A DNA stretch of 33,811 nucleotides, taken from an uncultured Bacteroidales bacterium (lineage in GTDB: Bacteria; Bacteroidota; Bacteroidia; Bacteroidales; Muribaculaceae). Of the stretch, positions 5,262-33,811 are shown piece after piece. The first letter of the stretch is position 1, and each line of letters starts with the position of its first letter. The stretch covers positions 1 through 33,811 of the forward strand of contig CANPDU010000036.1 of assembly GCA_947573135.1 (NCBI GenBank), read 5' to 3'. The notes under the pieces are model-generated. The model ran no database searches, was not told the origin of the DNA, and saw only the letters and a list, made by a program, of their open reading frames with translations. A program made the translations under genes and the position numbers.

Positions 5262-7355
5262 ATGTTTAAAGCAATGCAAATGTCACGTCAGAGCCTTTGG
5301 GTTATGTCACTGTCGATAATGACGCTCATGTCATGCACCAACGACGATTTCGAGTCGTCGGCCATAAGCTGTGGCCGAGAGATAAGTTTCGGTGTGTCGA
5401 CGCAGAGCGTCGGGTCGCGAAGCAATGCACCAGCCGAAGCCACTGATACGTTCCGGCTCGTCGCTGATGACCCACAGGCGCAGACGCTGCTTTGCACCGC
5501 TGAAACGGCTCCGATGTCGGATGCAGTCTCCCGCGCTACGTCGGTCACATCGGCCGACCGTATTACCGAGATAGGCGTTATAGCCCATGCTTCGTGGTAC
5601 ACTCCGCTGCTGATGGCCAACGACCTCTATAAGCGTAACGCCGATGGCGTATATCAGTCAACAGATGTCAGATATTGGATTGACGATGCAAGCGCGACAG
5701 TAGATTTCTATGCGTTTGCGCCCTACTCTCCATCAGGAATGACCTTCCCGACGTCGAAAGACGACAGACAGGTCGAATATACCGTGCCGACTGAATCCGA
5801 AAACCAACAAGATGTAATGCTCGCCGTCAGCAAGGGCATCAAAGGCAACCATAATAAGGCTGTCGGCCTGCCGTTCAAGCATCTGCTTGCAGGAGTGAGA
5901 GTTAACTTCTTGTCAATACCCGACAACTGGACAATCAAGTCGGTTGAGTTAGAGGGAGTGTATAGCAATGGTTCACTTGATTTTACCGCCGATTCGCCAA
6001 CGTGGGCTCCATCCGGCGCGACGACAACCGTTACATCGACCAACGGTGACAAAACCGAGACGCTTTTTATGCTGCTGCCGCAGACCGGCGGAGCAACACT
6101 CAAAATTGTGGCCAATGACGGCACCACAGACAAAACCTACACCAAGAACCTCGGATCATCCAACTGGTCAATGGGGAATATAACGACGTATTCGATAACG
6201 ATAACCAACTACAGCTTCGAAATCGAGGAAACGCCGTTGCTTGACGCTTATTATATTTTATATCACACAAGTATAACGGCGAATAATATCCCGGCAAATA
6301 TAAGTTGGACCGTCAGTTTCAAATCAACTGATAATGCCGCTATCACTATACAGCGAACAGAAGACATCAACACATATGCAATGCAAGGTTTTTGGACCGA
6401 CAAGTTAATTGACGGTAATACAGAGACAAGCGCCCGAGGTGAGAATAGTCTGACTCTAACGGGATCCGGGACTTTCCCTGTGTCGATATTTATTCCTGAA
6501 AACATCAATGATGACAAACGCATAATAAACATGACAATAACACCCGAAGGCAGAGAGCTACCTGAAAAAGAACACACCTTTACTCAATTATGTCCAGCGT
6601 GGACATCATCCGGATTCGGCTGGGAGCAAATTGATGACAATGAAACTGATGAGTATGGGTTCCGATGGAACAGGGTTGTTTATTATGGATATCTTTATAC
6701 AGCTTCATTAATCGGAGGAAGCGAATATAGAAATTATTGCCAATCAGTAATCGATCAAAATAATGCCGGCTCATACGCATCTGTTGAAACTTATGATTAT
6801 GGTTTGGCCAGACGTCGTTTCTGCATAAAGATAGATTATGGTAAGCTTAATAATCTCAATGGAATCGCAGATAACAGGAATGACGGACTAACAAACACAA
6901 GAAATCTATATAGCACGGCCGGAGCTGCTACTACCAACTCATTTGAGGAAACAGTAAAATTAATATTAAAAACTGAAGCCGGACACACTACCGAACCAGC
7001 ATTTCGTCTTGGCAACGGCCAAAATAACGAAGCTCCTGCTCCGACTGGAAATAATATAAACGGTTCACCTGCAGTTGGGTATTGTATTAAAAAGAATCGG
7101 TTTAACCTATACAAAACAACTTCATCGGAGGGTGATATATCTGTTACTCCTATAATAAATGAATCGGATATAAATTGGTATTTACCAGCCATAGACCAGT
7201 TTTTAGATATTCCGACAAATATACAATCATCTATTGTCACCGGAGATTGTTGGTCATCAACTGCCGTACTTAATGCTTCTGACGCTTATCTCGGTAACGG
7301 TACAGTTTCATCCCGTCTCTCAAATCACAAAGTCAGAGCTGCGCGCAACAGATAA
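5262..7355 (+). CDS. Large fimbrillin-like lipoprotein, probable tip adhesin
   Basis: A 697-residue predicted lipoprotein; signal sequence ending LMSC with Cys25, then T-N-D-D. Starts at M1, M5 or M7 would all keep the signal sequence. Residues 30-320 look like a fimbrillin (Mfa-like) module, with REISFGVSTQS and RYWIDDASATVDFYAFAPYS typical of the family. About 325-440 form a second beta-rich domain, and about 440-697 a C-terminal domain ending in a W-Y-L-P-A-I-D-Q, C-W-S-S-T and K-V-R-A-A-R-N-R pattern, like the lectin-like DUF1566/FISUMP ends of Bacteroidetes surface proteins. Roughly twice the size of the preceding subunit and last in the operon, it is best read as a tip or adhesin subunit. 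The ligand is unknown. Confidence 0.75.
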   Translation: MFKAMQMSRQSLWVMSLSIMTLMSCTNDDFESSAISCGREISFGVSTQSVGSRSNAPAEATDTFRLVADDPQAQTLLCTAETAPMSDAVSRATSVTSADRITEIGVIAHASWYTPLLMANDLYKRNADGVYQSTDVRYWIDDASATVDFYAFAPYSPSGMTFPTSKDDRQVEYTVPTESENQQDVMLAVSKGIKGNHNKAVGLPFKHLLAGVRVNFLSIPDNWTIKSVELEGVYSNGSLDFTADSPTWAPSGATTTVTSTNGDKTETLFMLLPQTGGATLKIVANDGTTDKTYTKNLGSSNWSMGNITTYSITITNYSFEIEETPLLDAYYILYHTSITANNIPANISWTVSFKSTDNAAITIQRTEDINTYAMQGFWTDKLIDGNTETSARGENSLTLTGSGTFPVSIFIPENINDDKRIINMTITPEGRELPEKEHTFTQLCPAWTSSGFGWEQIDDNETDEYGFRWNRVVYYGYLYTASLIGGSEYRNYCQSVIDQNNAGSYASVETYDYGLARRRFCIKIDYGKLNNLNGIADNRNDGLTNTRNLYSTAGAATTNSFEETVKLILKTEAGHTTEPAFRLGNGQNNEAPAPTGNNINGSPAVGYCIKKNRFNLYKTTSSEGDISVTPIINESDINWYLPAIDQFLDIPTNIQSSIVTGDCWSSTAVLNASDAYLGNGTVSSRLSNHKVRAARNR

Positions 7356-20471: not shown

Positions 20472-21770
20472 ATGAAAGTTTCCGTCTATCTGAAAAAGTG
20501 TTCCTTGACGACCTCGAACATCTGCTTCCGTGTCCGTGAGAAGAATGTGGATATAAAGGTGGTTTCGTCTCTTACAGTTCATGACAAGTACTGGGATGCA
20601 GATACCCTAAGTTATAAACGCACGACAGCCGTACCTGCCACCGACCAAAAACGCCTGCCCGAGCAGATTGCCACCATCATCGAGAAAGTGGAGAAGACCT
20701 TTTCGGACAAGGCGGACAGCAAATGGCTGAAGCAGGTTATCGAAGATGTGCTGTATCCTGCACGCGCCTTCGAACGCAACCATCCAACTCTGCTCTATCG
20801 TGTTCATGAATATTTGGAGAAGTACGAAGGGGCTGATAGAACCAAAGAGCATATCATACGTTTCGAGCGCAAGATGTCCCGCTATCACGACTACCAACGG
20901 GAAATACTGGGTAATCGTGACTTCACGCTCTTTGTGGAGACTGTCACACTGGAACAGATGAACGGTTTCCGGGATTATGTCGCGAATGAGTACCTGCTGC
21001 GTCAGGAGCATCCTGAGTTCTATGTTCCCCGTATGCTTATCAACCACAAGCCCAAGCCGCTCTCCAACACGACCGTCATCAACATTATGAACTTCTTCTG
21101 TACATTCCTGCACTGGTGCAAGAGGATGAAGTATTCCGACAACGAGGTGTATGCACTCTACGGCTGCAAGGAACCGACATACGGGGACCCGTTCTACCTT
21201 ACTTCGGAGGAAAGGAATGTCCTGTACGATGCGGATTTGAGTGACAATCCTAAACTGGCGGTCATCCGGGATATATTCGTGTTCCACTGCTATATCGGCT
21301 GTCGCGTTGGAGACCTTTACCGGCTGACAAGGGAAAACATCAAGGACGGCTTTCTGGAATACATGCCACAGAAAACGAAAAAGTGTCAGGCAAAGACAGT
21401 CAGAGTCCCCTTGCACGAAAAGGCCTTGAAGATACTGGAACGCTATGATGTAAACGCGGACAGGCTGTTTCCTTTCAAGCCCATACATACCTATAATCTT
21501 GGCATACGAGAACTTTTGAAGTATTGCGGCATTGACCGTATGGTCACCATCCTTGACACGCACGGCTATAATACCGTACAAAAACCATTGTATGAAGTCG
21601 CCAGCAGCCATACGGCACGCAAGACCTTTGTAGGCAACCTGTACAAACAGGTCCCCGATCCGAATCTGATCGCTTCCCTGTCGGGACACGTGGAAGGAAG
21701 CCGAGCGTTCAGGCGATACCGCACCATAGACGATGACATGAAGCGGAAACTGGTAGAAATGATAAACTAA
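20472..21770 (+). CDS. Tyrosine recombinase/integrase, first of two
   Basis: A 432-residue site-specific recombinase expected to integrate and excise the element. An arm-binding N-terminal domain (about 1-100), a SAM-like core-binding domain (about 105-220) and a catalytic domain (240-432) are seen. Catalytic residues appear intact: R278 (G-C-R-V-G-D-L-Y), a Lys near 301-304, H380-x-x-R383 (SSHTARKTF), H406 (S-G-H-V-E) and nucleophile Y416. The size and the GDPFYLT and NLYKQV..DPNLIAS blocks are typical of Bacteroides integrases. The second recombinase begins 13 bases later. Confidence 0.92.
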   Translation: MKVSVYLKKCSLTTSNICFRVREKNVDIKVVSSLTVHDKYWDADTLSYKRTTAVPATDQKRLPEQIATIIEKVEKTFSDKADSKWLKQVIEDVLYPARAFERNHPTLLYRVHEYLEKYEGADRTKEHIIRFERKMSRYHDYQREILGNRDFTLFVETVTLEQMNGFRDYVANEYLLRQEHPEFYVPRMLINHKPKPLSNTTVINIMNFFCTFLHWCKRMKYSDNEVYALYGCKEPTYGDPFYLTSEERNVLYDADLSDNPKLAVIRDIFVFHCYIGCRVGDLYRLTRENIKDGFLEYMPQKTKKCQAKTVRVPLHEKALKILERYDVNADRLFPFKPIHTYNLGIRELLKYCGIDRMVTILDTHGYNTVQKPLYEVASSHTARKTFVGNLYKQVPDPNLIASLSGHVEGSRAFRRYRTIDDDMKRKLVEMIN

Positions 21771-21775
21771 GGAGG
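21769..21775 (+). promoter_or_regulatory. Strong Shine-Dalgarno before the second integrase
   Basis: AAGGAGG lies eight bases before ATG 21784 and overlaps the first integrase stop codon. Such a full match is unusual in Bacteroidetes, where most genes here lack one, and it supports coupled translation of the second recombinase. Confidence 0.7.
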
Positions 21776-21783
21776 AAATATAT

Positions 21784-23115
21784 ATGAAAGTAACGGCATT
21801 CATCAGAAAGACATCGGCCAAGAACAATGTGACGGATCTGGCACACGTCTATTTCCGTGTCCGGGATATTGGCGGAGTCGATATAAAAGCGGCAAGCGAG
21901 CTTTCCATCAGCCCCAATCACTGGAGCGCGGAGAAACAGGGCTACAAGCCACGTGTGGCTCTGGTATCGGAAGAGAAGCGGATGAACTTTGACAGGGACA
22001 TCCAGCAAATCACCCACCTTATCACAAAGGAGTACCACCGTGGTGTGGACGGGAACTGGCTGAAAAGACTGATAGAGGAATACCACCATCCCGACATCAA
22101 CGCAAGGGGCGGCAACAAAGCCGAAGAATACCATCTCGTCTATCAGATCAGCCGGTATATCGCAGAAAACACTTTGGCGGACGACAGCTACAAGCACCAT
22201 CTTGGCAATATAGACAAGATAAGCCGTTACGAGCGTTTCCAGCATGAAGTACTGCACCGCAGAGGCTTTAAGTTGTGTATTGACACGATTACCGCCGATG
22301 ATTTGCGGGAGTTCAAGAGCTGGCTACAGGAGGAACATAATCTTGCCGGACAATATCCATTGTTCTATAAGGATGTGGAAAAGCAGAAATACGAGCAGAT
22401 CCGCTCCGAGAACAGCATTACAGGCTATTTTTACCGGATAAGGACGGTTGTCAAGTGGTGCATCAAGCGCGGGCTGACAAGAAACAATCCGTTTGACCAG
22501 TACCAGATAACCCAACCTATGTACGGCGACCCGTTTTATCTGACCCTCGAAGAGAGGGACAGGGTTTACTATGCCGACCTGAGCGGTCTGGGGGCCACCC
22601 ATCCGGTCTATCGGGACATATTCATGTTCCAGTGCCTGATCGGTTGCCGCGTCAGCGACCTGAACAGACTGACCAAAGCCAATGTCGTGGACGGATGTGT
22701 GGAATATATTCCACAGAAGACCAAAATGGAACACGCCAATACAGTTAGAGTTCCGCTCAACCAAAAGGCTTTGGACATACTGGAGAGATATAAGGACTTG
22801 GAAGACGCATTACTTCCCCGGTTCTCTCATTTCGGTTACAACAAGAAGATAAAGGAGATTCTCAAATATGTGGGCATAGACCGCATGGTGAGAGTCCTCG
22901 ACCCGAAGACACGCGAGGATGTGGCACGGCCTTTATACGAGGTGGCAACCACCCATACGGCACGAAAGACTTTTATAGGCAACTTATATAAGCAGGTCAA
23001 AGACCCGAACCTGATCGCCTCCATGTCGGGGCATTCGGAAGGTAGCCGGGCTTTTGTACGATACCGCAAGATTGATGACGATATGAAAAAGGAACTGGTA
23101 AACCTATTGGATTGA
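21784..23115 (+). CDS. Tyrosine recombinase/integrase, second of two
   Basis: A 443-residue paralogue of the upstream integrase with the same domain order. Catalytic residues are intact: R289 (G-C-R-V-S-D-L), a Lys at about 312, H391-x-x-R394 (HTARKTF), H417 (S-G-H-S-E) and Y427. The last 55 residues are very close to the first integrase (E-V-A-x-x-H-T-A-R-K-T-F, N-L-Y-K-Q-V, E-G-S-R-A-F), while the arm-binding domain differs strongly, so the two probably recognise different arm sites or work as a pair, as reported for elements that need two recombinases. Confidence 0.92.
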   Translation: MKVTAFIRKTSAKNNVTDLAHVYFRVRDIGGVDIKAASELSISPNHWSAEKQGYKPRVALVSEEKRMNFDRDIQQITHLITKEYHRGVDGNWLKRLIEEYHHPDINARGGNKAEEYHLVYQISRYIAENTLADDSYKHHLGNIDKISRYERFQHEVLHRRGFKLCIDTITADDLREFKSWLQEEHNLAGQYPLFYKDVEKQKYEQIRSENSITGYFYRIRTVVKWCIKRGLTRNNPFDQYQITQPMYGDPFYLTLEERDRVYYADLSGLGATHPVYRDIFMFQCLIGCRVSDLNRLTKANVVDGCVEYIPQKTKMEHANTVRVPLNQKALDILERYKDLEDALLPRFSHFGYNKKIKEILKYVGIDRMVRVLDPKTREDVARPLYEVATTHTARKTFIGNLYKQVKDPNLIASMSGHSEGSRAFVRYRKIDDDMKKELVNLLD

Positions 23116-23170
23116 CCGTTTCCCTCTTTTCTAATATCCCTTTTTATTCTTGATAATAATATAATACACT

Positions 23171-24319
23171 ATGAATATGGATGAACGAAAATTGACATAC
23201 GACCAGTTCAAGGCGGATATCCTTCATTGGAAGAACACGCACAGAGAGGAATACAACCGTTTCGCGCGACTGATGACAAACGGGGACGAGAGGCAGTACC
23301 TTGACATCTGTAAGGCCATATTCAGACAACTGCCCAGAATCAAGACTGAATGGGAGTTATGTTGGGATGATGACAATAAGGGGAATTTTGAGAATATAGA
23401 CCTCATGTTCAAAGAGGATGCAGTACCCAAGCGGATAGTGGAGTTATACCATGAACAGAGGGAGGGGAGTAATCCTTTGCATGATACAGCTCCGGCCACA
23501 TTATGGGACAGGATAAAATCCATTTTCAGCAGCAAGCCCGAAGAACCGCGCATTATCCTTTCAGCACCTCTTGTGTTGAGCTGGCTGTACTACGGAAAGA
23601 GTTTCGAGGCGATGGTCAGCATGGTTAGCAAACAGGCAGGGAATCCGGAAGTAGACGAAGCGGACAGACAAAGCTGTTCTTTTGTTACCCGACAAATCAT
23701 TAGCGTCTCCATCAAAAGTGGTTTCCGTACCCGTACCGACTGGGACGAATATTTCGCCATGAACGAAGCCGTTAAAGAAAATCGCATCGGTGAATGGGCC
23801 TTGCAATCCGCAACAGCCGAAATGGAATCCGATACAGACAGTAACGTTGGTGGCGCGGAATCAACAGATTCCGGCATTGATGCAACATCAAAGATACAGC
23901 GTACAGCCGGAAGGAAAAAGATACAGGAAAGCCCTCTTATAGATTATCTTAATTGCAAGAACAAAACGGAGGTCCTGCAATGTCTCCGCAGTTTTGTTTC
24001 CATTAACAGGAGTGCCGTCCATCAGGCATTGCCGTACTATGTACTGAAAGAATTGCGGCTGGTGGATGGTATGCATGCCGCCAAAGAATACAGCGTTGGA
24101 TTGACCCTGCAATTTCCGGATTTGCCGTCTTTGAAGAGCGAAAGTGCCATACGACAGGCCGTCGGGTCCCTGAAAACGTCAAGGCACATAATCAAGGACG
24201 GGAAAGACCAGTCCGCACCACTTATAGAAAGTGACGAAAACCGGGAACTGTTCCGGACATTGGCAGAGGAAATCAGAGGCATTATCAGAACAGATGAAGA
24301 AACAGATATTGCGGAATAA
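23171..24319 (+). CDS. Hypothetical protein of mobile elements (possibly DUF6043)
   Basis: A 382-residue soluble protein with ATG 23171 and, two codons on, 23177 as alternatives. The N-terminus (about 1-190) is helical, opening with L-H-W-K-N-T-H-R-E-E-Y-N-R-F, a form I associate with DUF6043 proteins found beside Bacteroides integrases; this assignment is from memory. A low-complexity Ser/Asp/Gly/Thr linker (about 210-240) is followed by a second helical domain (about 255-380). There is no signal peptide, membrane segment or catalytic motif. Position between integrase and excisionase genes suggests a role in control or DNA processing of the element. Confidence 0.65.
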   Translation: MNMDERKLTYDQFKADILHWKNTHREEYNRFARLMTNGDERQYLDICKAIFRQLPRIKTEWELCWDDDNKGNFENIDLMFKEDAVPKRIVELYHEQREGSNPLHDTAPATLWDRIKSIFSSKPEEPRIILSAPLVLSWLYYGKSFEAMVSMVSKQAGNPEVDEADRQSCSFVTRQIISVSIKSGFRTRTDWDEYFAMNEAVKENRIGEWALQSATAEMESDTDSNVGGAESTDSGIDATSKIQRTAGRKKIQESPLIDYLNCKNKTEVLQCLRSFVSINRSAVHQALPYYVLKELRLVDGMHAAKEYSVGLTLQFPDLPSLKSESAIRQAVGSLKTSRHIIKDGKDQSAPLIESDENRELFRTLAEEIRGIIRTDEETDIAE

Positions 24320-24340
24320 GGTAAAATAAGGCTGTTTTAT

Positions 24341-24379
24341 ATTGTCATGCAGTCTTAAATCGTCATGACAATTTAAGAC
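24341..24379. repeat. Two interleaved perfect inverted repeats
   Basis: ATTGTCATG (24341-24349) is complementary to CATGACAAT (24364-24372), and GTCTTAAAT (24352-24360) to ATTTAAGAC (24371-24379). The order is A-B-A'-B', so the pairs cannot form one nested hairpin: the RNA could make a pseudoknot or switch between two stems, or the DNA could hold two overlapping palindromic binding sites. It lies 20 bases after the hypothetical gene and about 160 bases before the HTH gene. Confidence 0.7.
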
Positions 24380-24414
24380 AAAGCATTATATATCAAATAG
24401 TTTCAATTCATACA

Positions 24415-24465
24415 TACTTTTGCACCGTCAATCCTTTCCCCGAAGGTTGGCGGTGCTTCTCTTTT
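24415..24465 (+). terminator. Promoter-like box followed at once by a terminator-type hairpin (possible attenuator)
   Basis: TACTTTTG (24415-24422) fits the -7 consensus. The hairpin uses 24422-24436 and 24443-24456, pairing 14 bp with one G-U pair and one bulged base around a 6-base loop, then TTCTCTTTT. If transcription starts near 24429 the hairpin would be partly lost; if it comes from further upstream, the hairpin would end it about 70 bases before the HTH gene. Confidence 0.65.
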
Positions 24466-24535
24466 ACAAGCCATCGGAAGTGAGGCATCAGGGAACTTTT
24501 ACAGATGGTCGTGATAAATTTCAAAACTGACATTT

Positions 24536-24889
24536 ATGATTACCATAGAAACTCTGGTCGAACAGGGAGCTAATGTAAAACTGGAAATTACTCCCTCGGA
24601 CCTCAAGATGTTTGCCGAATCCATCGTACAGCGTACCATCCTGGCACAGCAGGAAGAGCATAAGGCAGTAATGCAGCGTGAAGCGGAAGAAGTCTATCTC
24701 AACACGAAGCAAGTCCGGGAACTGCTGAACGTATGCGAAGGCACGCTCAACCTGTGGGCGAAGCGCGGCTACCTCGTGCCTGTCAAGGTAGGCAATAAGA
24801 ATATGTATGCCAAGTCGGATGTACGCCGCGTGCAGACAGGGGGCAAGTCCGAAAGTGTAATATCCTATTGCAAGAAGAAAAATGGCTGA
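24536..24889 (+). CDS. Excisionase-like helix-turn-helix protein
   Basis: A 117-residue protein. Residues 1-55 are helical and acidic. About 55-105 form a winged HTH of the MerR/excisionase (HTH_17) type: Y-L-N-T-K-Q-V-R-E-L-L-N-V, then TLNLWAKRGYLVPVKVGNKN and a final Y-A-K-S-D-V. Such proteins in Bacteroides mobilizable elements regulate or assist excision by bending DNA with the integrase. It overlaps the next gene by eight bases, indicating coupling. Confidence 0.85.
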   Translation: MITIETLVEQGANVKLEITPSDLKMFAESIVQRTILAQQEEHKAVMQREAEEVYLNTKQVRELLNVCEGTLNLWAKRGYLVPVKVGNKNMYAKSDVRRVQTGGKSESVISYCKKKNG

Positions 24890-26309
24890 CATGAAAAACA
24901 GCCGGCTTGAACTGTGTAACCGAATCCGCATGGAGGCGGAGCATACCGAAGACACAGGTTTTCCTTTGGACACATTCCCTCAGGCCGTACAGTCCGTTAT
25001 ACTTGACATGACCAAATACGAGAACTACATGATTGAGTTCATCGCGACGTCCATGCTGTCGGCAGCATCGACAGCCTTGGGCGGTACTTACCGTATCCGT
25101 ATCAAAAGCGACTGGCAGAGCAACGGCGCACTGTACATCATTCTGGTGGGCCGTCCCGGACTAGGCAAGACCCCACCGCTGGAAGCCGCATACCGTCCAA
25201 TCCGTAAACATGACTATGCCCTTTTCAAGGCGTATGAGGCAGAAGTGGAAGCATGGAAAGCGGCAGGAGAAAACGGAAAGAAACCTGTTCTTCACCGTAC
25301 CATCGTATCCGACTTCACACCCGAATCGCTTCTACAGACACATAACAACAATCCACGGAGTGTTGCCATTCTGGTGGACGAGATTATGGGCATGTTCAAT
25401 TCCGCCAACCGCTACACGAACGGGCAGCTCATAGAGCAATTGCTGACCGCATGGAGTGGCGGGGCCTTGGATGTAATAAGGGTAAGCAATTCCACTCCTG
25501 TACACATAGAACGCCCATGTATCAATATCATCGGGACTGCACAGACCAAACGTATGCACGAACTTCTCAAAAAAGGATTCGAGGAAAACGGACTGCTTGA
25601 CCGTATCCTGTTCGTGCTTCCCAAATCCCGGGAAGTGTCAAAATGGACAAACCGGGATGATGACGGAGAAAAGACCTCTTTAGCAGCAAAACGTTGGGAA
25701 AAGATACTGAACAAGGTGCTTGCCTTGGATTATAATGCCGAAACGGAAGGAGATGGAATGGAAGAACACGCCGCCCATGTGCTTTCCATGAACAGTGAAG
25801 CCAAAGAGTATTTCTTCTCCTGGTGGAACGAAAAAGTGGAACGTATCAACCGGATAGAGGATGATGCCGACGTTGACAGCCGGGAGATGAAACATCCGGC
25901 TCATGTGGCACGGATGGCTCTGATTATCCAAGTCCTGAGGTATGCTTCCGATGAAAGCCACCTGCAGTTTGTGGATCCGGTGTCGGTGAAAGCCGCTATC
26001 CGACTGAATGACTATTTCGAGGATTCATACATACGAATCCGTTCCTTCGTGGCAGACAATACTTGTGAAGAGCCTCCCAAAGTATTGTTGTCGTTGTTAC
26101 CCGATACCTTCGATACGAAAACGGCCATAGCGGTCGGTAAGGAACTGCAGAACATCAGCGAGCGCACGGTGATGAACTATCTCAGGGAGTTGTGTCACAG
26201 CAGGCTCTTGAAAAAGTCCAAAGCCGGGCATTACGAGAAAATGGTGTATGGATCCGGTAAATATTCCATAAACGAAAATGAACCATCAACCCAAAACTGC
26301 AATGAATGA
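24882..26309 (+). CDS. DUF3987 P-loop ATPase (primase/helicase-like)
   Basis: A 475-residue protein. Walker A is GRPGLGKT (residues 90-97) and Walker B is VAILVDE (161-167), followed by a sensor-like NIIGTAQ (215-221), in the arrangement of DUF3987 proteins. A helical C-terminal domain (about 380-460) includes a probable winged-helix segment (A-V-G-K-E-L-Q-N-I-S-E-R-T-V-M-N-Y-L). These proteins are standard in Bacteroidetes integrative elements and probably work with the downstream TOPRIM-like protein in element DNA replication; direct evidence for the family is limited. Its stop overlaps a spurious ATG at 26306. Confidence 0.88.
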   Translation: MADMKNSRLELCNRIRMEAEHTEDTGFPLDTFPQAVQSVILDMTKYENYMIEFIATSMLSAASTALGGTYRIRIKSDWQSNGALYIILVGRPGLGKTPPLEAAYRPIRKHDYALFKAYEAEVEAWKAAGENGKKPVLHRTIVSDFTPESLLQTHNNNPRSVAILVDEIMGMFNSANRYTNGQLIEQLLTAWSGGALDVIRVSNSTPVHIERPCINIIGTAQTKRMHELLKKGFEENGLLDRILFVLPKSREVSKWTNRDDDGEKTSLAAKRWEKILNKVLALDYNAETEGDGMEEHAAHVLSMNSEAKEYFFSWWNEKVERINRIEDDADVDSREMKHPAHVARMALIIQVLRYASDESHLQFVDPVSVKAAIRLNDYFEDSYIRIRSFVADNTCEEPPKVLLSLLPDTFDTKTAIAVGKELQNISERTVMNYLRELCHSRLLKKSKAGHYEKMVYGSGKYSINENEPSTQNCNE

Positions 26310-26423
26310 CCCCGCGTTGCAGCTTGCAGTTTCTTCAGTCTTGCAGTCTTGGGGCTCTGAAAACGATGTTTTCCTGCAAAACTGCAAGGACTGCAGACTG
26401 CAAATGGCGTTTTGGATTTGCAG
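26297..26423. repeat. Cluster of CTGCAA/TTGCAG motifs with interleaved inverted repeats
   Basis: CTGCAA is at 26297, 26374, 26382 and 26398, CTGCAG at 26391, and TTGCAG at 26317, 26324, 26341 and 26418: nine copies in 127 bases. Longer pairs exist: CTTGCAGTTT (26323-26332) with AAACTGCAAG (26379-26388), and TTGCAGTCT (26341-26349) with AGACTGCAA (26395-26403), again in A-B-A'-B' order. Spacings of 7-9 bases occur inside each half. This resembles an iteron array, a replication origin or a multi-site operator. Confidence 0.75.
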
Positions 26424-26443
26424 TAATCAAAAACGAAAGCATT

Positions 26444-27493
26444 ATGAGTGAGTACAGATTCCATCTTCAAAAATACAGACCGGGCAGTAAAAAAGTGTGC
26501 CCAAAGTGCGGCAGAAAATCCTGTTTTACCCGATATGTTGACGGGAATGCGCAAATTACATTCCCTAACCATGTGGGCAAATGTGATCATATCAACAGCT
26601 GTGGCTACCATTATACCCCGAAAGAGTATTTTCAGGATAATCCAACCATCAAAGAAACCATGATTGAACAAAACAACAGAAGCGACACCCCATCAAGAGC
26701 CGTCAAGCCAATAGCGAAGCCATTATCTAGTTCTGCACCACAGACTTCTTATCTTCCCTCTGATTGGGTTAGCCAGTCCATGCAGAAGTTTGACGTCAAT
26801 CCTTTATACCGATATCTAACCAAAGTGGCAGGCAAGGAGAAGACTGACAGGCTGTTCAATCTTTATAAGGTCGGTACATCCAAGATGTGGAACGGGGCAA
26901 CCGTTTTCTGGCAGATAGACATCAACGGTAATGTGCGGGCAGGCAAGATTATGGGTTATGATGCTAAGACCGGGCATCGAATCAAGCATCCGTTCAATCA
27001 GGTAAATTGGGTACACTCGGTTAAGAGGGTTCCGGATTTCCACATGAAGCAGTGCCTGTTCGGTGAGCATCTGTTGGCTGATGCTTTGACTTTGCCAAGG
27101 ACTGTTGCCATTGTAGAAAGCGAAAAGACAGCACTGATTGCCTCCCTTTTTATTCCGGATTTTGTCTGGCTTGCCACCAGTGGAATGCACGGCAGTTTCA
27201 ATAGTGAAGCCATGCAGGTGTTGCAGGGGCATGATGTTATTCTTTTCCCTGATCTCAGGGCTACAGAAGAATGGCAGCGTAAAGTACCCATGCTTCACTC
27301 CATTTGCAAGCGTGTCACTTGTTCCGACCTGTTGGAGAAGATGGCGACCGACAGGCAGCGCGAAGTCGGGTTGGATATTGCCGACTTCCTCCTGATGGAA
27401 GATACGCCGCAGATGGTTCTTGCAAGGATGGTAGAACGCAATCCTGCATTGCGGTTGCTTATTGACGAACTGGATCTGGCACTGGTGGAGTAA
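26444..27493 (+). CDS. Zinc-finger/TOPRIM-like primase-type protein (DUF6371)
   Basis: A 349-residue protein from ATG 26444. An ATG at 26306, overlapping the DUF3987 stop, would add 46 residues encoded entirely by the repeat cluster, so it is rejected; the opening MSEYRFHLQKY followed by cysteines is the normal DUF6371 start. Cysteines at C19, C22, C27, C47 and C53 suggest a primase-type zinc ribbon. A TOPRIM-like part follows, with V-A-I-V-E-S-E-K-T-A (catalytic Glu) and V-I-L-F-P-D-L-R (Asp). It is probably the element's primase or an accessory to it, coupled with the DUF3987 ATPase upstream. Confidence 0.8.
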   Translation: MSEYRFHLQKYRPGSKKVCPKCGRKSCFTRYVDGNAQITFPNHVGKCDHINSCGYHYTPKEYFQDNPTIKETMIEQNNRSDTPSRAVKPIAKPLSSSAPQTSYLPSDWVSQSMQKFDVNPLYRYLTKVAGKEKTDRLFNLYKVGTSKMWNGATVFWQIDINGNVRAGKIMGYDAKTGHRIKHPFNQVNWVHSVKRVPDFHMKQCLFGEHLLADALTLPRTVAIVESEKTALIASLFIPDFVWLATSGMHGSFNSEAMQVLQGHDVILFPDLRATEEWQRKVPMLHSICKRVTCSDLLEKMATDRQREVGLDIADFLLMEDTPQMVLARMVERNPALRLLIDELDLALVE

Positions 27494-27521
27494 TCTGAAG
27501 GCTTGCGTCTGGAATTTAGAG

Positions 27522-27596
27522 AAAAGTCCATAACACAATAAGGACTTTTTGCCTGACAGCAATAAAGTCCAGTCTGAATCCAGCAGAATCTGAATC
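27522..27596. other. Candidate origin of transfer (oriT)
   Basis: AAAAGTCC (27522-27529) and GGACTTTT (27542-27549) form a perfect 8-bp inverted repeat. On the minus strand the loop reads TTATTGTGTTAT before GGACTTTT, resembling, from memory, the pMV158 MobV nick region (TGTG|TTA before ACTTTA). Further on, TCTGAATC occurs twice (27573-27580, 27589-27596), 16 bases apart. It lies about 50-120 bases before the relaxase gene, where MobV origins usually are. It could instead be a weak terminator after the DUF6371 gene. Confidence 0.5.
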
Positions 27597-27644
27597 GGAG
27601 TGAGCAAGCTCAAACACCAATTATTTATCAAAAGAACATTTATT

Positions 27645-29186
27645 ATGACAACAGATAAAAAACAGGCCATGCACGTCGAAGCTGGTAAATCTTTCAGCAC
27701 GGCAGAGGCCAACGAGAACGAACGGCGTTGGAACGAGGACAAGATTGACTATAAGAATCAGGATCCGACCAACCACTATGACAAAACTAGAATGAAACTG
27801 AATTTCGAGATTGGCTCTGATGGTAAAATCCATCCGTTGGGCTATCATGAGAAACCGCTTGAAGTTCGTCTGCAGGAACGGCTGGTTACATTAGGTTGGA
27901 AACCATTCAAGCCGGACAGCAAAATTCAGCCGAACTGTTGTGCAAAGTTTATCTTTGGCGGCAACCATGACCGGACGCTTGAAATAGCGTTCGGAAACCA
28001 GACCGTCAGCTTGGAGAAAGATGCAGACAACAGCCACTTGCATCGGTGTGAAGAAGTCGAACATTGGGCAAAGGATGTCTATGACTGGTGTGTCCGCAGA
28101 TACGGACAGGAAAACATTGTAGGATTTCAGGTACACCTTGACGAGAGTAGCCCGCATATTCATGCTCTGATTGTTCCGGTCGGAATCCGCCGAAAAAGCG
28201 GACGAGAGTGTGTGATGTGGTCGGCAAAGTTCGGGAAAGACAGGTTTGAGTATGGAAAGATTTTAAAAGATATGCACACTTCTTTGTATGAAGATGTCGG
28301 CAGCAAATACGGCCTTGAACGTGGGGACAGTATTGACGGACGTAATGTGCAACATCTTCACAAGCGTGATTATATCCGCAAGTTGGCCAAAGAGGCAAAA
28401 CAGGCTGAGAAAGCGGTCAAGGGGCTTCAATCCATGATACGGAATCTGGAATCAAAGGTTTTCAGTTATAATCAACAGCTTGAAAAGGCGGAGCAGGAAT
28501 TAGTATCCGGCAGGATTACACTTGACAGATATAAGGAGCAGAAAGCGGATATACAAAAACTCATTGCAGAGTATCAGACCAAACTTGAAGACAAGGCTGG
28601 CAAACTACACGCAAAGGAGCAGGAATTGGAGCGACTGACTGAAGATGCGGCAAAAGTCCGTTCAGTTGTCCAGCCGTTCCGTAATCACAAGGTCGATTTC
28701 ACACCACCTCAAATTACCGAGAAAGTACCCTTGTTCGGTACGGACAAATGGGTTGAACGTCAGAATCATCATATCGCCAAGCAGTTTACCGAAATTATCC
28801 GCAAAATAGAATCCCTGTATAGGAATGATGCGGCACGGCAGGTTGAAGCCGCCCAGCATAATGTACTGGTGAACTACGGGGAACTTTATCAGTTGAGACG
28901 GGAGAACAAATTGCTTTCTGACGCAAATGAAAATCTGGAATCCGAGCTGAATGCATTGCTTGATCAGTTGGCTATACCGTCAATTCGCAACTTGATTTTT
29001 GCCGTTGCCGATGCGCTCATCGGTGGACAACCCGTACCGGTTTCTTCCGGTGGCGGAGGCTCAACCTCTGACCTGCCTTGGGATGGCCGAAGACCTGACG
29101 AGGAGGAAGAGACATATCGTCGTAGATGTTTACTTCAAACGTCACGAATAGTAAAACATAACAAAATTCGAAGTAGAAATAGATAA
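27645..29186 (+). CDS. MobV family relaxase (Mob/Pre)
   Basis: A 513-residue mobilization protein; ATG 27645 is preferred over a GTG at 27600, which lacks conserved sequence. It should nick the element at oriT and lead the strand into a conjugation channel supplied in trans. N-terminal motif: N-H-Y-D-K-T-R-M-K-L-N-F-E-I (about 43-56). The metal-binding histidine motif is H-L-D-E-S-S-P-H-I-H (164-173), the MobV/Pre signature. Residues about 245-345 are a long coiled coil, and the C-terminus ends in a Gly-rich linker and a basic tail. No tra genes accompany it. It converges with the defence-type operon at a terminator. Confidence 0.92.
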   Translation: MTTDKKQAMHVEAGKSFSTAEANENERRWNEDKIDYKNQDPTNHYDKTRMKLNFEIGSDGKIHPLGYHEKPLEVRLQERLVTLGWKPFKPDSKIQPNCCAKFIFGGNHDRTLEIAFGNQTVSLEKDADNSHLHRCEEVEHWAKDVYDWCVRRYGQENIVGFQVHLDESSPHIHALIVPVGIRRKSGRECVMWSAKFGKDRFEYGKILKDMHTSLYEDVGSKYGLERGDSIDGRNVQHLHKRDYIRKLAKEAKQAEKAVKGLQSMIRNLESKVFSYNQQLEKAEQELVSGRITLDRYKEQKADIQKLIAEYQTKLEDKAGKLHAKEQELERLTEDAAKVRSVVQPFRNHKVDFTPPQITEKVPLFGTDKWVERQNHHIAKQFTEIIRKIESLYRNDAARQVEAAQHNVLVNYGELYQLRRENKLLSDANENLESELNALLDQLAIPSIRNLIFAVADALIGGQPVPVSSGGGGSTSDLPWDGRRPDEEEETYRRRCLLQTSRIVKHNKIRSRNR

Positions 29187-29204
29187 TTGAACTAGCACTT
29201 GCAT

Positions 29205-29242
29205 ATCAGAAAATGGAGAAATATCTTGCTCCATTTTCTGAT
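29205..29242. terminator. Bidirectional terminator between the relaxase gene and the convergent operon
   Basis: A 14-bp perfect stem: 29205-29218 with 29229-29242, loop of ten bases. A-rich and T-rich flanks serve both directions. It separates the relaxase gene (plus strand) from the small gene ending at 29304 (minus strand). Confidence 0.85.
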
Positions 29243-29303
29243 TATATTTCATATATATGCCAATATGGGAGACGCTACTTCGTTTACTATGCATATTCAA
29301 ATA

Positions 29304-29549
29304 TTAATTAAAAAGACTCATCTCGCCATTTTCTCCTTCGGGATGTACTTTTTTCCATATGGCATCATTTAAACTTTTTATTTGTTCTTGTTCTTCTGGG
29401 GTTATCCCTTCACCATATTCACATTCGATAGGCTGTCCATCAAGAAGGGCGGCAATCATTTTGATGTACGAGAACACCTCCTGCTTTGTATTATCAAGAA
29501 TTACAGCAGCAATATCACCGTCCTCTGTTTTATTGAATTTCAGTTTCAT
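29304..29549 (-). CDS. 81-residue hypothetical protein, last gene of the hsdR-ATPase operon
   Basis: A small acidic protein opening MKLKFNKTEDGDIAAVILDN, with a beta-strand start, a helix (Y-I-K-M-I-A-A-L-L-D-G) and a C-terminal helix after G-I-T-P-E-E-Q-E-Q-I. Its ATG begins one base after the stop of the ATPase gene, so its translation is almost certainly coupled and it may be a partner or regulator of that protein. An upstream in-frame start at 29627 would lie inside the ATPase gene and is rejected. It is not recognised as a member of any known family. Antitoxin, adaptor and inhibitor roles are all possible and untested. Confidence 0.68.
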   Translation of the reverse strand: MKLKFNKTEDGDIAAVILDNTKQEVFSYIKMIAALLDGQPIECEYGEGITPEEQEQIKSLNDAIWKKVHPEGENGEMSLFN

Positions 29550-29550
29550 A

Positions 29551-31854
29551 TTAATTGTATTTTTTAAAATTATACTTCTTGACTCTTTTTTTAATTGATG
29601 TCCTACCACCATCAGTCTGATCAGCAATATAGTCCAATACTTTTTGTCCGAAGACCTCGCTTTCTAATGATGCAGAGCGAATGGTTATCTTGTTTCCATC
29701 GTTTTCACAAACAACAATTGTTTGGGCATCTGCCATCATAGGTATCGTTGCATTGTGGCTTACCATAATCACTTGCTTACTCCATTTTACAGCTTTGATA
29801 GTTTCTGTTAATGTCGAATTTATATATTTCACAGCCAAATTATCCTCTGGCTGATCAATAATAATGGGCGCAGTATCTTGTTCATACCCTAGTATTAAGT
29901 CCAACAAAATTGCCGTTTTCCATCCTGGACTCAAATTATTAAAATCTTTTCCGTCTTTTGTCACAATCTTATACGAACGTGTATTTAACTCCATCAATTT
30001 CGTATATACTTTCTGAGTCATATCGTTGTATGATTCGACATTGGGATTTTTCTTGAAATAACGGCTCATCAAATTCCACGGAGTAACATCTACAATAGTA
30101 TTGATATTAGACTTTAAACAGTATTTCAATGCATCTACTAGTACCTTCTCGTTAAAACTAAAGTTATTAATAACAGACAATTTATGTCCTCTTGCTTCTA
30201 TCTCTCTAGTCTGAAAAGAGTATTTTGTTTTAATCAACTCTTGTTTACAGTGCTTAAAGCCCGTAAGAGCTTTTATATATTCACCTACAGTTTTAAGTAA
30301 ACTATCCTTGTTTGTGATGCGGGATTGCTGCTGTCCAAGTTCATCTTTCAGTATTCTGTCTACAACTTGTTTATGTTCTTTTACGACCATAGACACATCA
30401 TCAAACACAGTATAGGCTTTTGCCGCTAAGGCAAGTTTTGTTTTTATGGAGTTAATCTCTTCATTTGCACCTTCAACCAAAGGATTATTCTCTAAAAAAG
30501 TTCTAATAGTCTCTATTGCTTCTAAATCGATTTTATATTGATTCGAAGGATACTTAACGAGACTTTCTTCTTCTGCCGTTGGCATCAATATATTCAACGC
30601 ATTTTTCTTCACTATGCCAGTAACAATCAACTGTCCTGGATTAGGTAATGCATTCAAGGTTCGCTCACAGTCCTCTATTTTCTCCACGTACTGCAACATT
30701 TCACTAATTACCTCATGCAATTTATTTAGCCCCGTTGTAATGCTACGATTTATTACATCGTCTGCAGGAAAAATATTCCTTAATATCTCTATTTTATCAA
30801 CACTTTTTTCGTTATTATCCGAGATGTTTTCTGCTATGAAGTTTTGAGATATATAATATGGGGTCATTCCGCTTGTATTCTCTACAATCATATTATCTAC
30901 ACCATAACGCTCTATATACTTCGAACCCTCAAAATCCTGATGAATATTTCTATATAATGAATCCACAAATAAAGTTTTCCCGGATGAAGATCCGCCAATT
31001 ACGACATTCAGACCTTCGGTTAAGTTTACATTCACGTCTATATGTTCATTCTGCAATTCTACATGCCCAATATAATCACTTCGTCGTATTGGTTTCTCAT
31101 GACTAGCCACAAGTCTTGTACTTTCAGAAAGCGAAAGTCGTAATCCATCAAATGTTGGTTGCGCAAACATCCATGTTGGGATGAAATCATCATCATTACC
31201 GCTATGCGAGCGAGGATATATACTGGGAGAATAGTTGTCAGAGCAAGTCACAAGATTAATGAACTCCGATATTCCGAGTCGTTCAAAATATCGATGAGTT
31301 GCCTCCAGCCCTTTGGTACTTCTTGATGTAAAACCATCAAATTGATTATAATATATACTTCTATTGATTGCGTTGTCTAAATTTTCACCATCGTTGATGC
31401 TATAATTAAATGCTCCATGTTTTTGTGAGCCGTGTGGTAGTAAAATGAAATCAAATGTATCAAAACTATTAATGATTTTTTGGATATCTGGCGTATTGGG
31501 GTCATTTCGGTCAGGTAATTTATTAGGATATAGCTCATCTAGAATCTCGTTTAGCGAATCTATTACAGCATCTTCTATAGGAGCATTAAAATATATATGA
31601 CAATGGTACGATTTTGCCTCAGCCCGATTTTGAATGTGTAATTCTACACCAATAATTAAGTTAAGACCCAGGTTTTGGGCCTTCAAATAGGCTGATTTGT
31701 TAATGGTGTTGTGATCTGTTAACGAAATCATAAATGGACTGTCTCCATTTAGTTTCTTTATTTGACCGACCAATTCTGCTATATCGTAGTTAGTATTCAG
31801 ATTATTTGCATTCTCTGAAGTATGTATGTGTAAATCTATGTATATTGGTTGCAT
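29551..31854 (-). CDS. PHP-domain/SMC-like ATPase fusion (TrlF-like), probable defence protein
   Basis: A 767-residue protein. The N-terminal PHP phosphoesterase domain (about 1-250) has D-L-H9-I-H11, T-D47-H48-N, E71, H84, H141 and a C-S-D206 near its end, the expected metal ligands. An ABC/SMC ATPase follows: Walker A GGSSSGKT (287-294), a helical insertion (about 350-620), signature LSPGWKT (641-647), Walker B PIIIDQPED (663-671) and H-loop His700 (MVSHN). NCBI names similar proteins TrlF family AAA-like ATPase; that name is from memory. It starts 20 bases after hsdR on the same strand and is followed one base later by a small gene. It is markedly A+T-rich, suggesting separate acquisition. 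A nucleic-acid target is inferred from domain and context. Confidence 0.85.
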   Translation of the reverse strand: MQPIYIDLHIHTSENANNLNTNYDIAELVGQIKKLNGDSPFMISLTDHNTINKSAYLKAQNLGLNLIIGVELHIQNRAEAKSYHCHIYFNAPIEDAVIDSLNEILDELYPNKLPDRNDPNTPDIQKIINSFDTFDFILLPHGSQKHGAFNYSINDGENLDNAINRSIYYNQFDGFTSRSTKGLEATHRYFERLGISEFINLVTCSDNYSPSIYPRSHSGNDDDFIPTWMFAQPTFDGLRLSLSESTRLVASHEKPIRRSDYIGHVELQNEHIDVNVNLTEGLNVVIGGSSSGKTLFVDSLYRNIHQDFEGSKYIERYGVDNMIVENTSGMTPYYISQNFIAENISDNNEKSVDKIEILRNIFPADDVINRSITTGLNKLHEVISEMLQYVEKIEDCERTLNALPNPGQLIVTGIVKKNALNILMPTAEEESLVKYPSNQYKIDLEAIETIRTFLENNPLVEGANEEINSIKTKLALAAKAYTVFDDVSMVVKEHKQVVDRILKDELGQQQSRITNKDSLLKTVGEYIKALTGFKHCKQELIKTKYSFQTREIEARGHKLSVINNFSFNEKVLVDALKYCLKSNINTIVDVTPWNLMSRYFKKNPNVESYNDMTQKVYTKLMELNTRSYKIVTKDGKDFNNLSPGWKTAILLDLILGYEQDTAPIIIDQPEDNLAVKYINSTLTETIKAVKWSKQVIMVSHNATIPMMADAQTIVVCENDGNKITIRSASLESEVFGQKVLDYIADQTDGGRTSIKKRVKKYNFKKYN

Positions 31855-31874
31855 GTCAACTTGTTCTATTTAGT

Positions 31875-33811
31875 TTATTCATGTTTCTTATAATTCTCTA
31901 CTTGTTTCAGAACTTTCTGGAAAACTTCTTCATCCCATTGAGGAGGATAGTCCTCTTTGTAGAGAAGATAGGTAAGCTGGCTGGCGAGTTTGCTTTTCAG
32001 GTTGTCGTTATTTAGCCAATCGGCATAAATAGCGGTATCATCTATCAATGTCTTTATTTTTTTTGCCAATTCAATACAACGATCATCCGCATACTCAAAA
32101 CCGTGTTTATCCCTAACTTCGACAAGGACATCAAAGAAAGCTTTCTCTTCGAAAGTGATACCTAAAACCCTGAATTTCTCGCTGTCAGATTTAAGTTCTT
32201 TCAGGATATTCATCAGCTTGTTTGACAGTCCGTTAATTTTGTATGAAACGATATCACATACATCATTCACTACGTTTTGTGTCACTTCATTGGTGAATGT
32301 CAGCTTATCACGGGTATTATATGCGTTAATCGTTTCCTCGAGCATCTTCTGGAAATGCTCAGCCTGTATCTTGTTCGTCCGGCTGTATGCTCTAATGGCC
32401 TTGGCTACGAGTTTGCAGAGAATCTGAAATTTGGTGAACGGCATCTTTATCTCTTCCACCTCTTTGGTGAACGAGTCGCTGAAAATGTTTTCTTCAACAC
32501 CTTCGTTCATAACTCTCTCCACACCACTGGCGAGGATAGCTTCCTGAACCATCTGTTCCACGTGCCTGTTCATGTTCTCCGTATCATGCTCCGTGATAGT
32601 CATTTTGTTCACGTATGAGCAGATACCCATAAAGCATTGACTCCACGTTACCTCTTCTTCTGTCAGAATGCCGGCCGGGTTACAGATATTATAAGCAGAA
32701 CGCAGGCGTTTGACATGTTCTTTGAAAAGTTTGAGGAAGGAAACCTCTCCTTTCCGTTCAACACTGTTGGCAAGGATATATTCTGCCGCTTCCTGAATAA
32801 ACTGAAGTCGGGCAAGGTCATTGTTTCCGAAAAAACGGTCAAATACCAATCCAGACAATCGCTCTTGCAAAAGTTGCAGTTCGTTCTGCAATACTTCATG
32901 TGCAACCTCCAAATCTTCCTGAGGTCCAACTTCACCACCATATTTTTTCATGGCTTTTTTCATCTCTTCGCGAATACCTATGTAGTCGATGATAAAGCCA
33001 CACTCTTTTGTGCCGAATTTACGGTTTACTCGCGAAATGGTCTGAATGAGAGTATGTTTCGATAACGGTTTATCGTTATAAAGCATCGTCAGGCAAGGCA
33101 CATCAAAACCGGTAATCCACATGTCTACATTGATGGAGATATGGAAATTCGATTTTTCCGATTTGAACTCAGTATCAAGGAATTTACGATATTCCTTGTC
33201 TCCAAGCAGATTGTAAAGTTCCTTTTCATCGTCCTTGTCGCGAGTCATGACCATATTGACAAATGCGATGTCATGCAGCTTGTTCTTTTCGTCTGCGGTC
33301 AATACAAGTTCGTTCAATGCTTTCTTCTTCTCGAACCAGTCGGGCTGCATTTCCCGCATGATTTTATACAACCTGAATGCTATTTTGCGGTCTGCACAAG
33401 TAATCATAGCCTTTTGCAAACGGTCTGTGGTCTCTGTTCTTCGTTTATAGTCTTCGATAATGTCTTTGGCAACACGATGCAAGACATCTTCATCACCGAT
33501 AATCACCTCCATACTCGACATGGCGGCTTTGCTTTTGGCAATATCCTCCGGCATTGCCCCTTCGTCTGCACATAGACGATAATATTCTTCTACTTTCTCT
33601 GCCTGTTCTTTATTGAGGAATACACGAGCCAATCGGGGATCATATTTGATTGGGACAGTGATGCCGTCATCCTCCGACTCCTTCATCGTATATTGATCTA
33701 CAACCTTTCCAAATACATGTACGGTCTCGTCAATGGGTGTTCCCGTAAAACCTACGTATGTGGCGTTAGGCAATGCATCCCGCAGATATTTGGCAAAGCC
33801 GTATGTGATTT
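31875..33811 (-). CDS. hsdR: Type I restriction enzyme HsdR, 5' end beyond window
   Basis: The frame stays open to the right edge, so 644 C-terminal residues are seen and the N-terminal nuclease domain and helicase motifs I-II are missing. The first residues read I-T-Y-G-F-A-K-Y-L-R-D-A and run into N-A-T-Y-V-G-F-T-G-T-P (motif III), so a start at 33773 would be false. Later come motif V (D-M-W-I-T-G-F-D-V-P) and motif VI (LIQTISRVNRKFG), followed by a helical DUF3387-type C-terminal domain. HsdR translocates DNA and cuts it when the HsdS target is unmethylated. The hsdM and hsdS partners are not in the window and would lie beyond the edge. Confidence 0.93.
   Translation of the reverse strand, partial: ITYGFAKYLRDALPNATYVGFTGTPIDETVHVFGKVVDQYTMKESEDDGITVPIKYDPRLARVFLNKEQAEKVEEYYRLCADEGAMPEDIAKSKAAMSSMEVIIGDEDVLHRVAKDIIEDYKRRTETTDRLQKAMITCADRKIAFRLYKIMREMQPDWFEKKKALNELVLTADEKNKLHDIAFVNMVMTRDKDDEKELYNLLGDKEYRKFLDTEFKSEKSNFHISINVDMWITGFDVPCLTMLYNDKPLSKHTLIQTISRVNRKFGTKECGFIIDYIGIREEMKKAMKKYGGEVGPQEDLEVAHEVLQNELQLLQERLSGLVFDRFFGNNDLARLQFIQEAAEYILANSVERKGEVSFLKLFKEHVKRLRSAYNICNPAGILTEEEVTWSQCFMGICSYVNKMTITEHDTENMNRHVEQMVQEAILASGVERVMNEGVEENIFSDSFTKEVEEIKMPFTKFQILCKLVAKAIRAYSRTNKIQAEHFQKMLEETINAYNTRDKLTFTNEVTQNVVNDVCDIVSYKINGLSNKLMNILKELKSDSEKFRVLGITFEEKAFFDVLVEVRDKHGFEYADDRCIELAKKIKTLIDDTAIYADWLNNDNLKSKLASQLTYLLYKEDYPPQWDEEVFQKVLKQVENYKKHE

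Follow-up and report, generated by a model that had tools for sequence, protein, structure and literature searches.

A PHP-ABC ATPase and its small partner beside hsdR: a conserved gene pair and candidate anti-phage effector

Introduction

Contig CANPDU010000036.1 of an uncultured Bacteroidales bacterium (Muribaculaceae; assembly GCA_947573135.1) ends in three consecutive minus-strand genes. The first is the 3' part of hsdR, the restriction subunit gene of a type I restriction-modification (R-M) system. The second encodes an N-terminal PHP domain fused to an ATPase of the ATP-binding cassette (ABC) and structural maintenance of chromosomes (SMC) type, named PHP-ATPase here, and the third a small acidic protein. 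The window is the complete contig of 33,811 bp, out of a 2.85-Mb assembly in 56 contigs, and because it ends inside hsdR, this gene is truncated. The original prediction, made from the sequence alone, saw a probable operon that might act as a backup or guard, with PrrC and RloC, which act when restriction is blocked, as precedents. Is the functional unit this three-gene cassette, or do the ATPase and its small neighbour stand for themselves? The comparison of homologues favours, at a probability of roughly 0.58, a two-gene pair acting by itself as an anti-phage effector akin to Ppl and TrlF.

Results and Discussion

An invariable gene pair

The small gene is located directly 3' of the ATPase gene in all 20 uninterrupted copies, with gaps between −26 and +6 nt. 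It also follows the second half of a split ATPase gene in Bacteroides muris. The view that the small gene is truly attached thus found support.

The census comprises 21 loci, the window included. A genome scan provided 17 loci in 16 genomes, consisting of 15 uninterrupted genes and two halves of one split gene. These halves (L009 and L021) belong to one genome and one interrupted gene, which is a single locus among the 21 and is excluded from the 20-member counts. Whole-genome searches added four loci, one with the ATPase profile (G417) and three with the small-protein profile (G733, G881 and G1720); each had the ATPase gene alongside the small gene. G762 and G417 share contig number and position and were counted once. 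L023, L048–L069 and L076–L080 are repeats of counted loci, L073 overlaps L074, and L024 and L075 both represent the TrlF-like gene of G180.

The subfamily is sharply separate from TrlF-like proteins, since whole members and TrlF-like proteins differ widely on the same profile, which was built from the first 16 sequences. The 19 whole members scored 1090–1307 bits and split or cut copies 358–848 bits, as against 59–114 bits for 23 TrlF-like proteins from viral contigs and 67–112 bits for 14 TrlF/Ppl proteins from plasmids. The L074 ATPase was not scored as a whole (its cut copy L073 has 642 bits), hence 19 whole members.

The pair occurs rarely and in scattered lineages; according to the titles of the records, it extends across several phyla, with members in Bacteroidetes and relatives, Planctomycetes, Nitrospirae, Komeilibacteria, Parcubacteria, Acholeplasmatales and Erysipelotrichaceae. 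Besides the window, it was present in one of 394 other genomes of the same phylum. A search of 195 relatives yielded no member, the match in G180 being partial and TrlF-like. The genome at the centre of the search was the only match in 379 genomes of the phylum of L022, and likewise in 160 genomes of the order of L018. Plasmid and phage sequences searched by tblastn with the ATPase yielded partial matches only, largely TrlF or Ppl by annotation.

The small proteins share a conserved core of about 70 residues and have variable tails. Their isoelectric point (pI) is 4.05–5.33 in 19 of the 20 members. No match was obtained in Pfam, NCBIfam or PADLOC up to an E value of 1, and searches of PHROGs (best E 0.012) and of PDB sequences stayed at chance level. 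One small protein searched against plasmids by tblastn had no match at E 0.01. The open reading frame (ORF) list offers an upstream TTG start for the window gene. The ATG start is preferred and is supported by an N-terminal MK in 19 of the 20 members, the window included, with MR in L071.

The small gene keeps to its partner. It was present in exactly one copy in each of 16 genomes tested, and searches with the small protein alone matched 4 of 395, 2 of 247 and 1 of 36 genomes, centre genomes included. No copy away from an ATPase gene was found in these 16, 395, 247 and 36 genomes. It was absent from the 23 TrlF-like viral-contig loci (several near-identical, and L030 lacking downstream DNA) and from the 14 TrlF/Ppl plasmid loci. 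ATPase and small protein have co-evolved, with a Mantel r of 0.90, and of 0.79 on 13 non-redundant members; none of 9999 permutations was as high. In pairs with measurable synonymous divergence (dS), the ratio of nonsynonymous to synonymous divergence (dN/dS) was 0.04–0.11 for both genes. The exception is a value of 0.24 for the small gene of the window and L010, at near-saturated dS. The small gene is under purifying selection.

Domain organisation of the PHP-ATPase

The PHP domain covers residues 1 to about 245. The ATPase part follows with Walker A (287–294), the Q-loop (Q337), the signature (641–647), Walker B (663–669) with E670, and the H-loop (H700). Walker A, the signature, Walker B and the H-loop had been reported as intact. 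All these ABC/SMC motifs are present; their key residues are invariant in 20 of 20 members, except for T or S at Walker A position 294. Eight PHP positions are equally invariant (H9, H11, D47, H48, E71, H84, H141 and D206), and we take them to be metal ligands from their roles in PHP enzymes. His73, His86 and His146 are also invariant in the 20 members. A CxxC zinc hook is absent from all of them.

SMC_N and PHP lead the Pfam matches, both below their gathering scores (PHP 23.4 versus 26.4 bits). HEPN had no Pfam match. The NCBIfam scores were 194.2 bits for TrlF, 97.4 for Spaf_1101 and 73.2 for Ppl, and Ppl was also the top match in PADLOC. PDB sequences matched only weakly, five of six being Rad50, with the AriA ATPase also among the matches and none for the PHP part.

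Linkage to type I restriction

The layout of the three genes was confirmed in all coordinates, with a gap of 20 nt between hsdR, whose stop is at 31875, and the ATPase gene, and of 1 nt between the latter and the small gene. The hsdR frame corresponds to residues 432–1075 of the 1075-residue HsdR of Palleniella muris with 95% identity and contains two domains typical of type I restriction subunit R, the T1RH-like C-terminal domain PF11867 (244 bits) and the SWI2/SNF2 domain PF18766 (66 bits). The N-terminal nuclease domain lies beyond the contig end. Neither HsdR residues 1–431 nor a close HsdM was found elsewhere in the assembly at E 1e-10, only distant paralogues. Either the assembly of the R-M system is thus incomplete, or the strain itself lacks part of it.

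Across the census, hsd genes are occasional. Searches of the flanking DNA with tblastn and with HsdR, HsdM and HsdS profiles detected them in 4 of 21 loci (window, L006, L009 and L018), with less than 1.6 kb of upstream DNA for L012 and L020. The four represent two lineages. Window, P. muris (L006) and B. muris (L009) share one cassette, as far as the window reaches, and L006 and L009 agree to 96% in HsdM and to 95% in HsdR. Their homology starts just ahead of the gene preceding hsdM. The gene order in P. muris is hsdM, a DUF1016 nuclease gene, hsdS, hsdR, PHP-ATPase and small gene, and Septu PtuB/PtuA lie past the small gene on the opposite strand. The Acholeplasmatales metagenome-assembled genome L018 has a different type I system, with an HsdR of about 24% identity; its hsdR lies 345 bp from the ATPase gene. 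Because the small gene is constant and hsd occasional, what is conserved is a module of two genes, which occurs in diverse surroundings that include defence islands. The homologues that had been proposed as a check on the three-gene cassette thus upheld the small gene as a constant companion; hsd did not prove to be one, and a conserved backup for blocked restriction was not borne out.

Two further observations concern these hsd operons. In L006 (2221–5612), a DUF2971 gene precedes hsdM, and the gene between hsdM and hsdS encodes a DUF1016/YhcG PDDEXK nuclease. In L018, a TIR-domain gene (5835–6662; SpbK-like in PADLOC) is located between hsdS and hsdR.

The histories of hsdR and the ATPase gene also differ. 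Between window and L006, dS is 0.672 for hsdR, 0.095 for the ATPase gene and 0.315 for the small gene (12 synonymous changes). The differences fall near the hsdR/ATPase border and climb again in the small gene. Between window and L009, dS is 0.346 for hsdR and 0.033 for the first 540 codons of the ATPase gene. Homology of the window with P. muris ends within a few nucleotides of the end of the small gene. Given this homology end and the dS shift at the border, the ATPase gene seems to recombine partly apart from hsdR.

These results bear on the PrrC-like guard that the original prediction had proposed. HsdR or the holoenzyme would silence the ATPase, phage anti-restriction would release it, and the pair would form a second layer of type I R-M. 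The 20-nt gap, the cassette common to three genomes, the second, unrelated hsd operon upstream in L018 and the PrrC precedent, described in PMC3710099 and PMC12707154, speak for such a guard. According to PMC3874168, prrC is invariably R-M linked and rloC only rarely, so RloC is no precedent for linkage. The linkage itself recurs in the wider superfamily, since on plasmid pNDM-KN a TrlF gene within a type I operon shares 4 nt with the end of hsdR. Against a guard stand the 17 of 21 loci without an hsd gene in the flanking DNA, the sevenfold difference in dS with its shift near the gene border, the membership of the four hsd neighbours in two systems, and B. muris, where hsdR is open beside a broken ATPase gene. 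We consider a guard unlikely, and the pair probably protects independently rather than as a restriction backup.

Among the 14 TrlF/Ppl plasmid loci, hand-picked from best and spread lists out of 749 matched plasmid records, pNDM-KN is the only one with hsd. Restriction-type genes are annotated nearby in three more (L086, L089 and L090) and in none of the others, as far as the incomplete gene table reaches. The pNDM-KN operon (L082 2340–13110) also contains RNA-binding-domain and AAA genes.

The insertion in B. muris and the mobile surroundings

The ATPase gene of B. muris is apparently interrupted by an insertion sequence (L009 11626–11941 and L021 1–179). Its inverted ends measure 13 bp, and 3 bp of the target seem to be duplicated, as read from two contig ends with the middle unassembled. 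The genes hsdM, hsdS, hsdR and the small gene remain open. This insertion fits an ATPase that is the dispensable, active partner.

The cassette of the window adjoins the Mob_Pre relaxase end of an integrative mobilizable element (Table 1). The downstream flank is common to window and B. muris, with 97% identity over a 1045-nt alignment reaching 29188, and is not shared by P. muris. Tandem tyrosine integrase genes (window 20472–23115) are located at one side of the element, near thrS and infC. A Bacteroidota promoter consensus was found upstream of the pair in one of 20 loci only (L008).

Table 1. Features at the hsdR end of the window and in the adjoining mobile element
Feature	Position	Strand	Remarks
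3' part of hsdR (type I restriction subunit R)	31875..33811	minus	truncated by contig end
PHP-ABC ATPase gene, 767 aa	29551..31854	minus	ORF and profile matches
Small gene, 81 aa, ATG start, pI 4.45	29304..29549	minus	no Pfam, NCBIfam or PADLOC family
Flank downstream of small gene, inverted repeat, terminator-like (by eye only)	29188..29303	minus	sequence
Integrative mobilizable element genes	20472..29186	plus	two tyrosine integrases, DUF6043, helix-turn-helix, DUF3987, DUF6371, Mob_Pre relaxase

Such surroundings would suit a toxin-antitoxin-like addiction module that stabilises mobile elements, in which the PHP-ATPase is toxic, the small protein its antidote and any effect on phages secondary. 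The tight coupling and co-evolution of the pair, its patchy distribution (one of 394 other genomes of the phylum), the integrative element beside it in the window and the apparent inactivation of the large gene by an insertion sequence are all consistent with this. The toxin-like gene, however, is long and multi-domain with full ABC motifs, some copies reside among chromosomal housekeeping genes, and in the genomes searched the small gene was without the large gene only in the insertion case. An addiction module is a doubtful explanation, on a par with the restriction guard.

Defence genes in the neighbourhood

A recognised defence neighbour is present in 8 of 21 loci, or 6 of 19 with the three cassette copies merged. 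Besides the hsd genes and Septu, these are Hachiman (L008), a type II R-M system (L017), an AbiL-type AAA/RloB pair (L074) and, as a weaker case, a DUF3644/HEC-08-like protein (L015). The earlier view of the locus as a candidate for defence is thus plausible, with a cassette flanked by Septu in L006. On each side, the scans took in at most three genes with a minimum length of 100 aa, and they extend to the first 25 families each, out of 123 and 106 matched. One of the matches, to PDC-M37B, was left unassigned to a locus, and the count excludes weak or candidate-only labels in L007 and L012. The scan of 91 neighbour proteins excluded window, L006, L009 and L018; in window, L006 and L018 some of the neighbours were scanned directly, and L009 was assigned its type from an alignment with L006.

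Two genes recur at some loci. DUF6261 genes are located near the pair in L013 (8176–8916) and L072 (8664–9365), with three DUF6261 matches in the 91-protein scan. A 71-aa ORF in L071 (10690–10905) lies 12 nt upstream of the PHP-ATPase gene, and a similar sequence ends at the same place in L072.

The remaining neighbourhoods would suit a DNA repair or nucleotide housekeeping function, in which a Rad50-like ATPase with a PHP phosphatase or exonuclease hitch-hikes in defence islands: the mostly Rad50 matches in the PDB, the occurrence of PHP domains in polymerases and phosphatases, and the majority of loci without a recognised defence neighbour agree with it, but the pair is rare and patchy, unlike a housekeeping gene, and the related Ppl is defence-associated, which makes this an improbable reading, slightly more so than the two above.

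Relation to known systems

The PHP-ATPase and its partner are judged from their sequences to be related to TrlF, Spaf_1101 and Ppl and distinct by the partner gene. TrlF (NF045780), the top curated match, has the same N-terminal PHP and ABC ATPase halves and the Walker B LIIDQPED. An alignment with viral TrlF-like proteins pairs their C-terminal EGG..AF..R..KY with DGG..SI..R..KY in the PHP-ATPase. In contrast to TrlF, the score of 194.2 bits is below the cut-off of 350, the SDxH and DNLD motifs differ, and the 23 TrlF-like viral-contig loci and 14 TrlF/Ppl plasmid loci are without the small partner. The Spaf_1101 (NF045781) alignment spans the ATPase part (residues 233–762), with 97.4 bits versus a cut-off of 475.

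Ppl (NF042955, PADLOC Ppl) also combines PHP and ATPase in one protein. The match to it is confined to residues 628–759, with 73.2 versus 1000 bits. Ppl is anti-phage according to PMC12904381 and PMC13152194. The former, a review, describes it as a 3'-5' exonuclease on ssDNA (single-stranded DNA) whose activity depends on nucleotide depletion and on 3'-OH ends, and terms it a single-gene system, unlike the pair described here.

PrrC and RloC resemble the PHP-ATPase as ABC/Rad50-like ATPases fused to a nuclease, and PrrC is located beside type I R-M. Theirs is a HEPN RNase at the C-terminus, whereas PHP is at the N-terminus here. R-M linkage is not a rule in the PHP-ATPase family. RloC has a CxxC zinc hook in an insert of the ATPase, in contrast to the hookless PHP-ATPase. 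PARIS AriA and Septu PtuA are also SMC-like ATPases with a second protein, and AriA was a weak sequence match. Neither is known to carry a PHP domain, and their partners are nucleases (AriB is a Toprim nuclease). Here, the ATPase itself contains the nuclease-like domain, and its partner is without a match to any known domain.

Proposed function and points against it

In the two-gene effector favoured here, a dimer of the ABC/SMC-type ATPase would sense a state made by the phage, for example a changed nucleotide pool or exposed DNA ends. Sensing would free the PHP domain as a metal-dependent nuclease, which would degrade nucleic acid. By homology to Ppl, this putative nuclease may be gated by nucleotides. 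The small protein would be an obligate subunit: bound to the ATPase, it would control the activity of the latter, most probably as a brake or licensing subunit; adjacency, acidity and the single insertion event suggest the brake. The evidence behind this proposal is the adjacency in all uninterrupted copies, the co-evolution, the purifying selection, the catalytic motifs, the modularity and the defence neighbours in a minority of loci.

Several findings weigh against this effector. The last canonical PHP histidine (SDxH) is Tyr208 in 20 of 20 members, so the PHP ligands predicted to be intact are so in eight positions and not in the last. This histidine is kept in 17 of 21 aligned TrlF-like proteins and lost in 4. 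The D-loop position is A674 in all 20 members and D in the aligned TrlF-like proteins. Because of the Tyr and the Ala, the activity of the PHP-ATPase may differ from that of its relatives. The curated cut-offs of TrlF (350), Spaf_1101 (475) and Ppl (1000 bits) were missed. The small protein of L020 is basic (pI 9.19), which weakens the brake role. As an upper bound, 13 of 21 loci have no recognised defence neighbour, and some copies lie among enolase, urocanase or transporter genes. To our knowledge, the PHP-ATPase subfamily has not been subjected to a phage assay. The literature matches listed included neither such an assay nor a paper on the TrlF ATPase or on the pair.

The tails of the small proteins allow a different role. 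The small protein might be an adaptor whose exchangeable C-terminal tail docks onto the replication machinery or ssDNA and so recruits the PHP nuclease there. The tail would be a copy of the tip of the single-stranded DNA-binding protein (SSB) in Komeilibacteria and Parcubacteria and resemble a clamp motif in four gut Bacteroidales members. The small protein of L017 (12347–12634) ends with EEEINPDDIPF and one of the two SSBs of its host (L099) with EEEISIEDIPF. The L022 protein ends with DDMPF, and the four gut Bacteroidales proteins with SLFN, SLFGK, SLF or RLF. On the other side, 14 of 20 tails are without either motif, the pattern was noticed post hoc, the L022 genome yielded no SSB, and the host SSB of L007 ends with DDLPF while its small protein ends with SLF. 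Such an adaptor is rather improbable, and the brake or licensing subunit of a self-contained effector is preferred.

Conclusion

The adjacency of hsdR by itself is insufficient to call a gene an R-M guard. PHP-ATPases of the TrlF/Ppl type are common, as the 749 matched plasmid records indicate. The subfamily described here adds an ever-present, fast-evolving small partner without a match in the family libraries, from gut Bacteroidales to Parcubacteria. This partner offers direct access to the question of how nucleases of this kind are held back or targeted.

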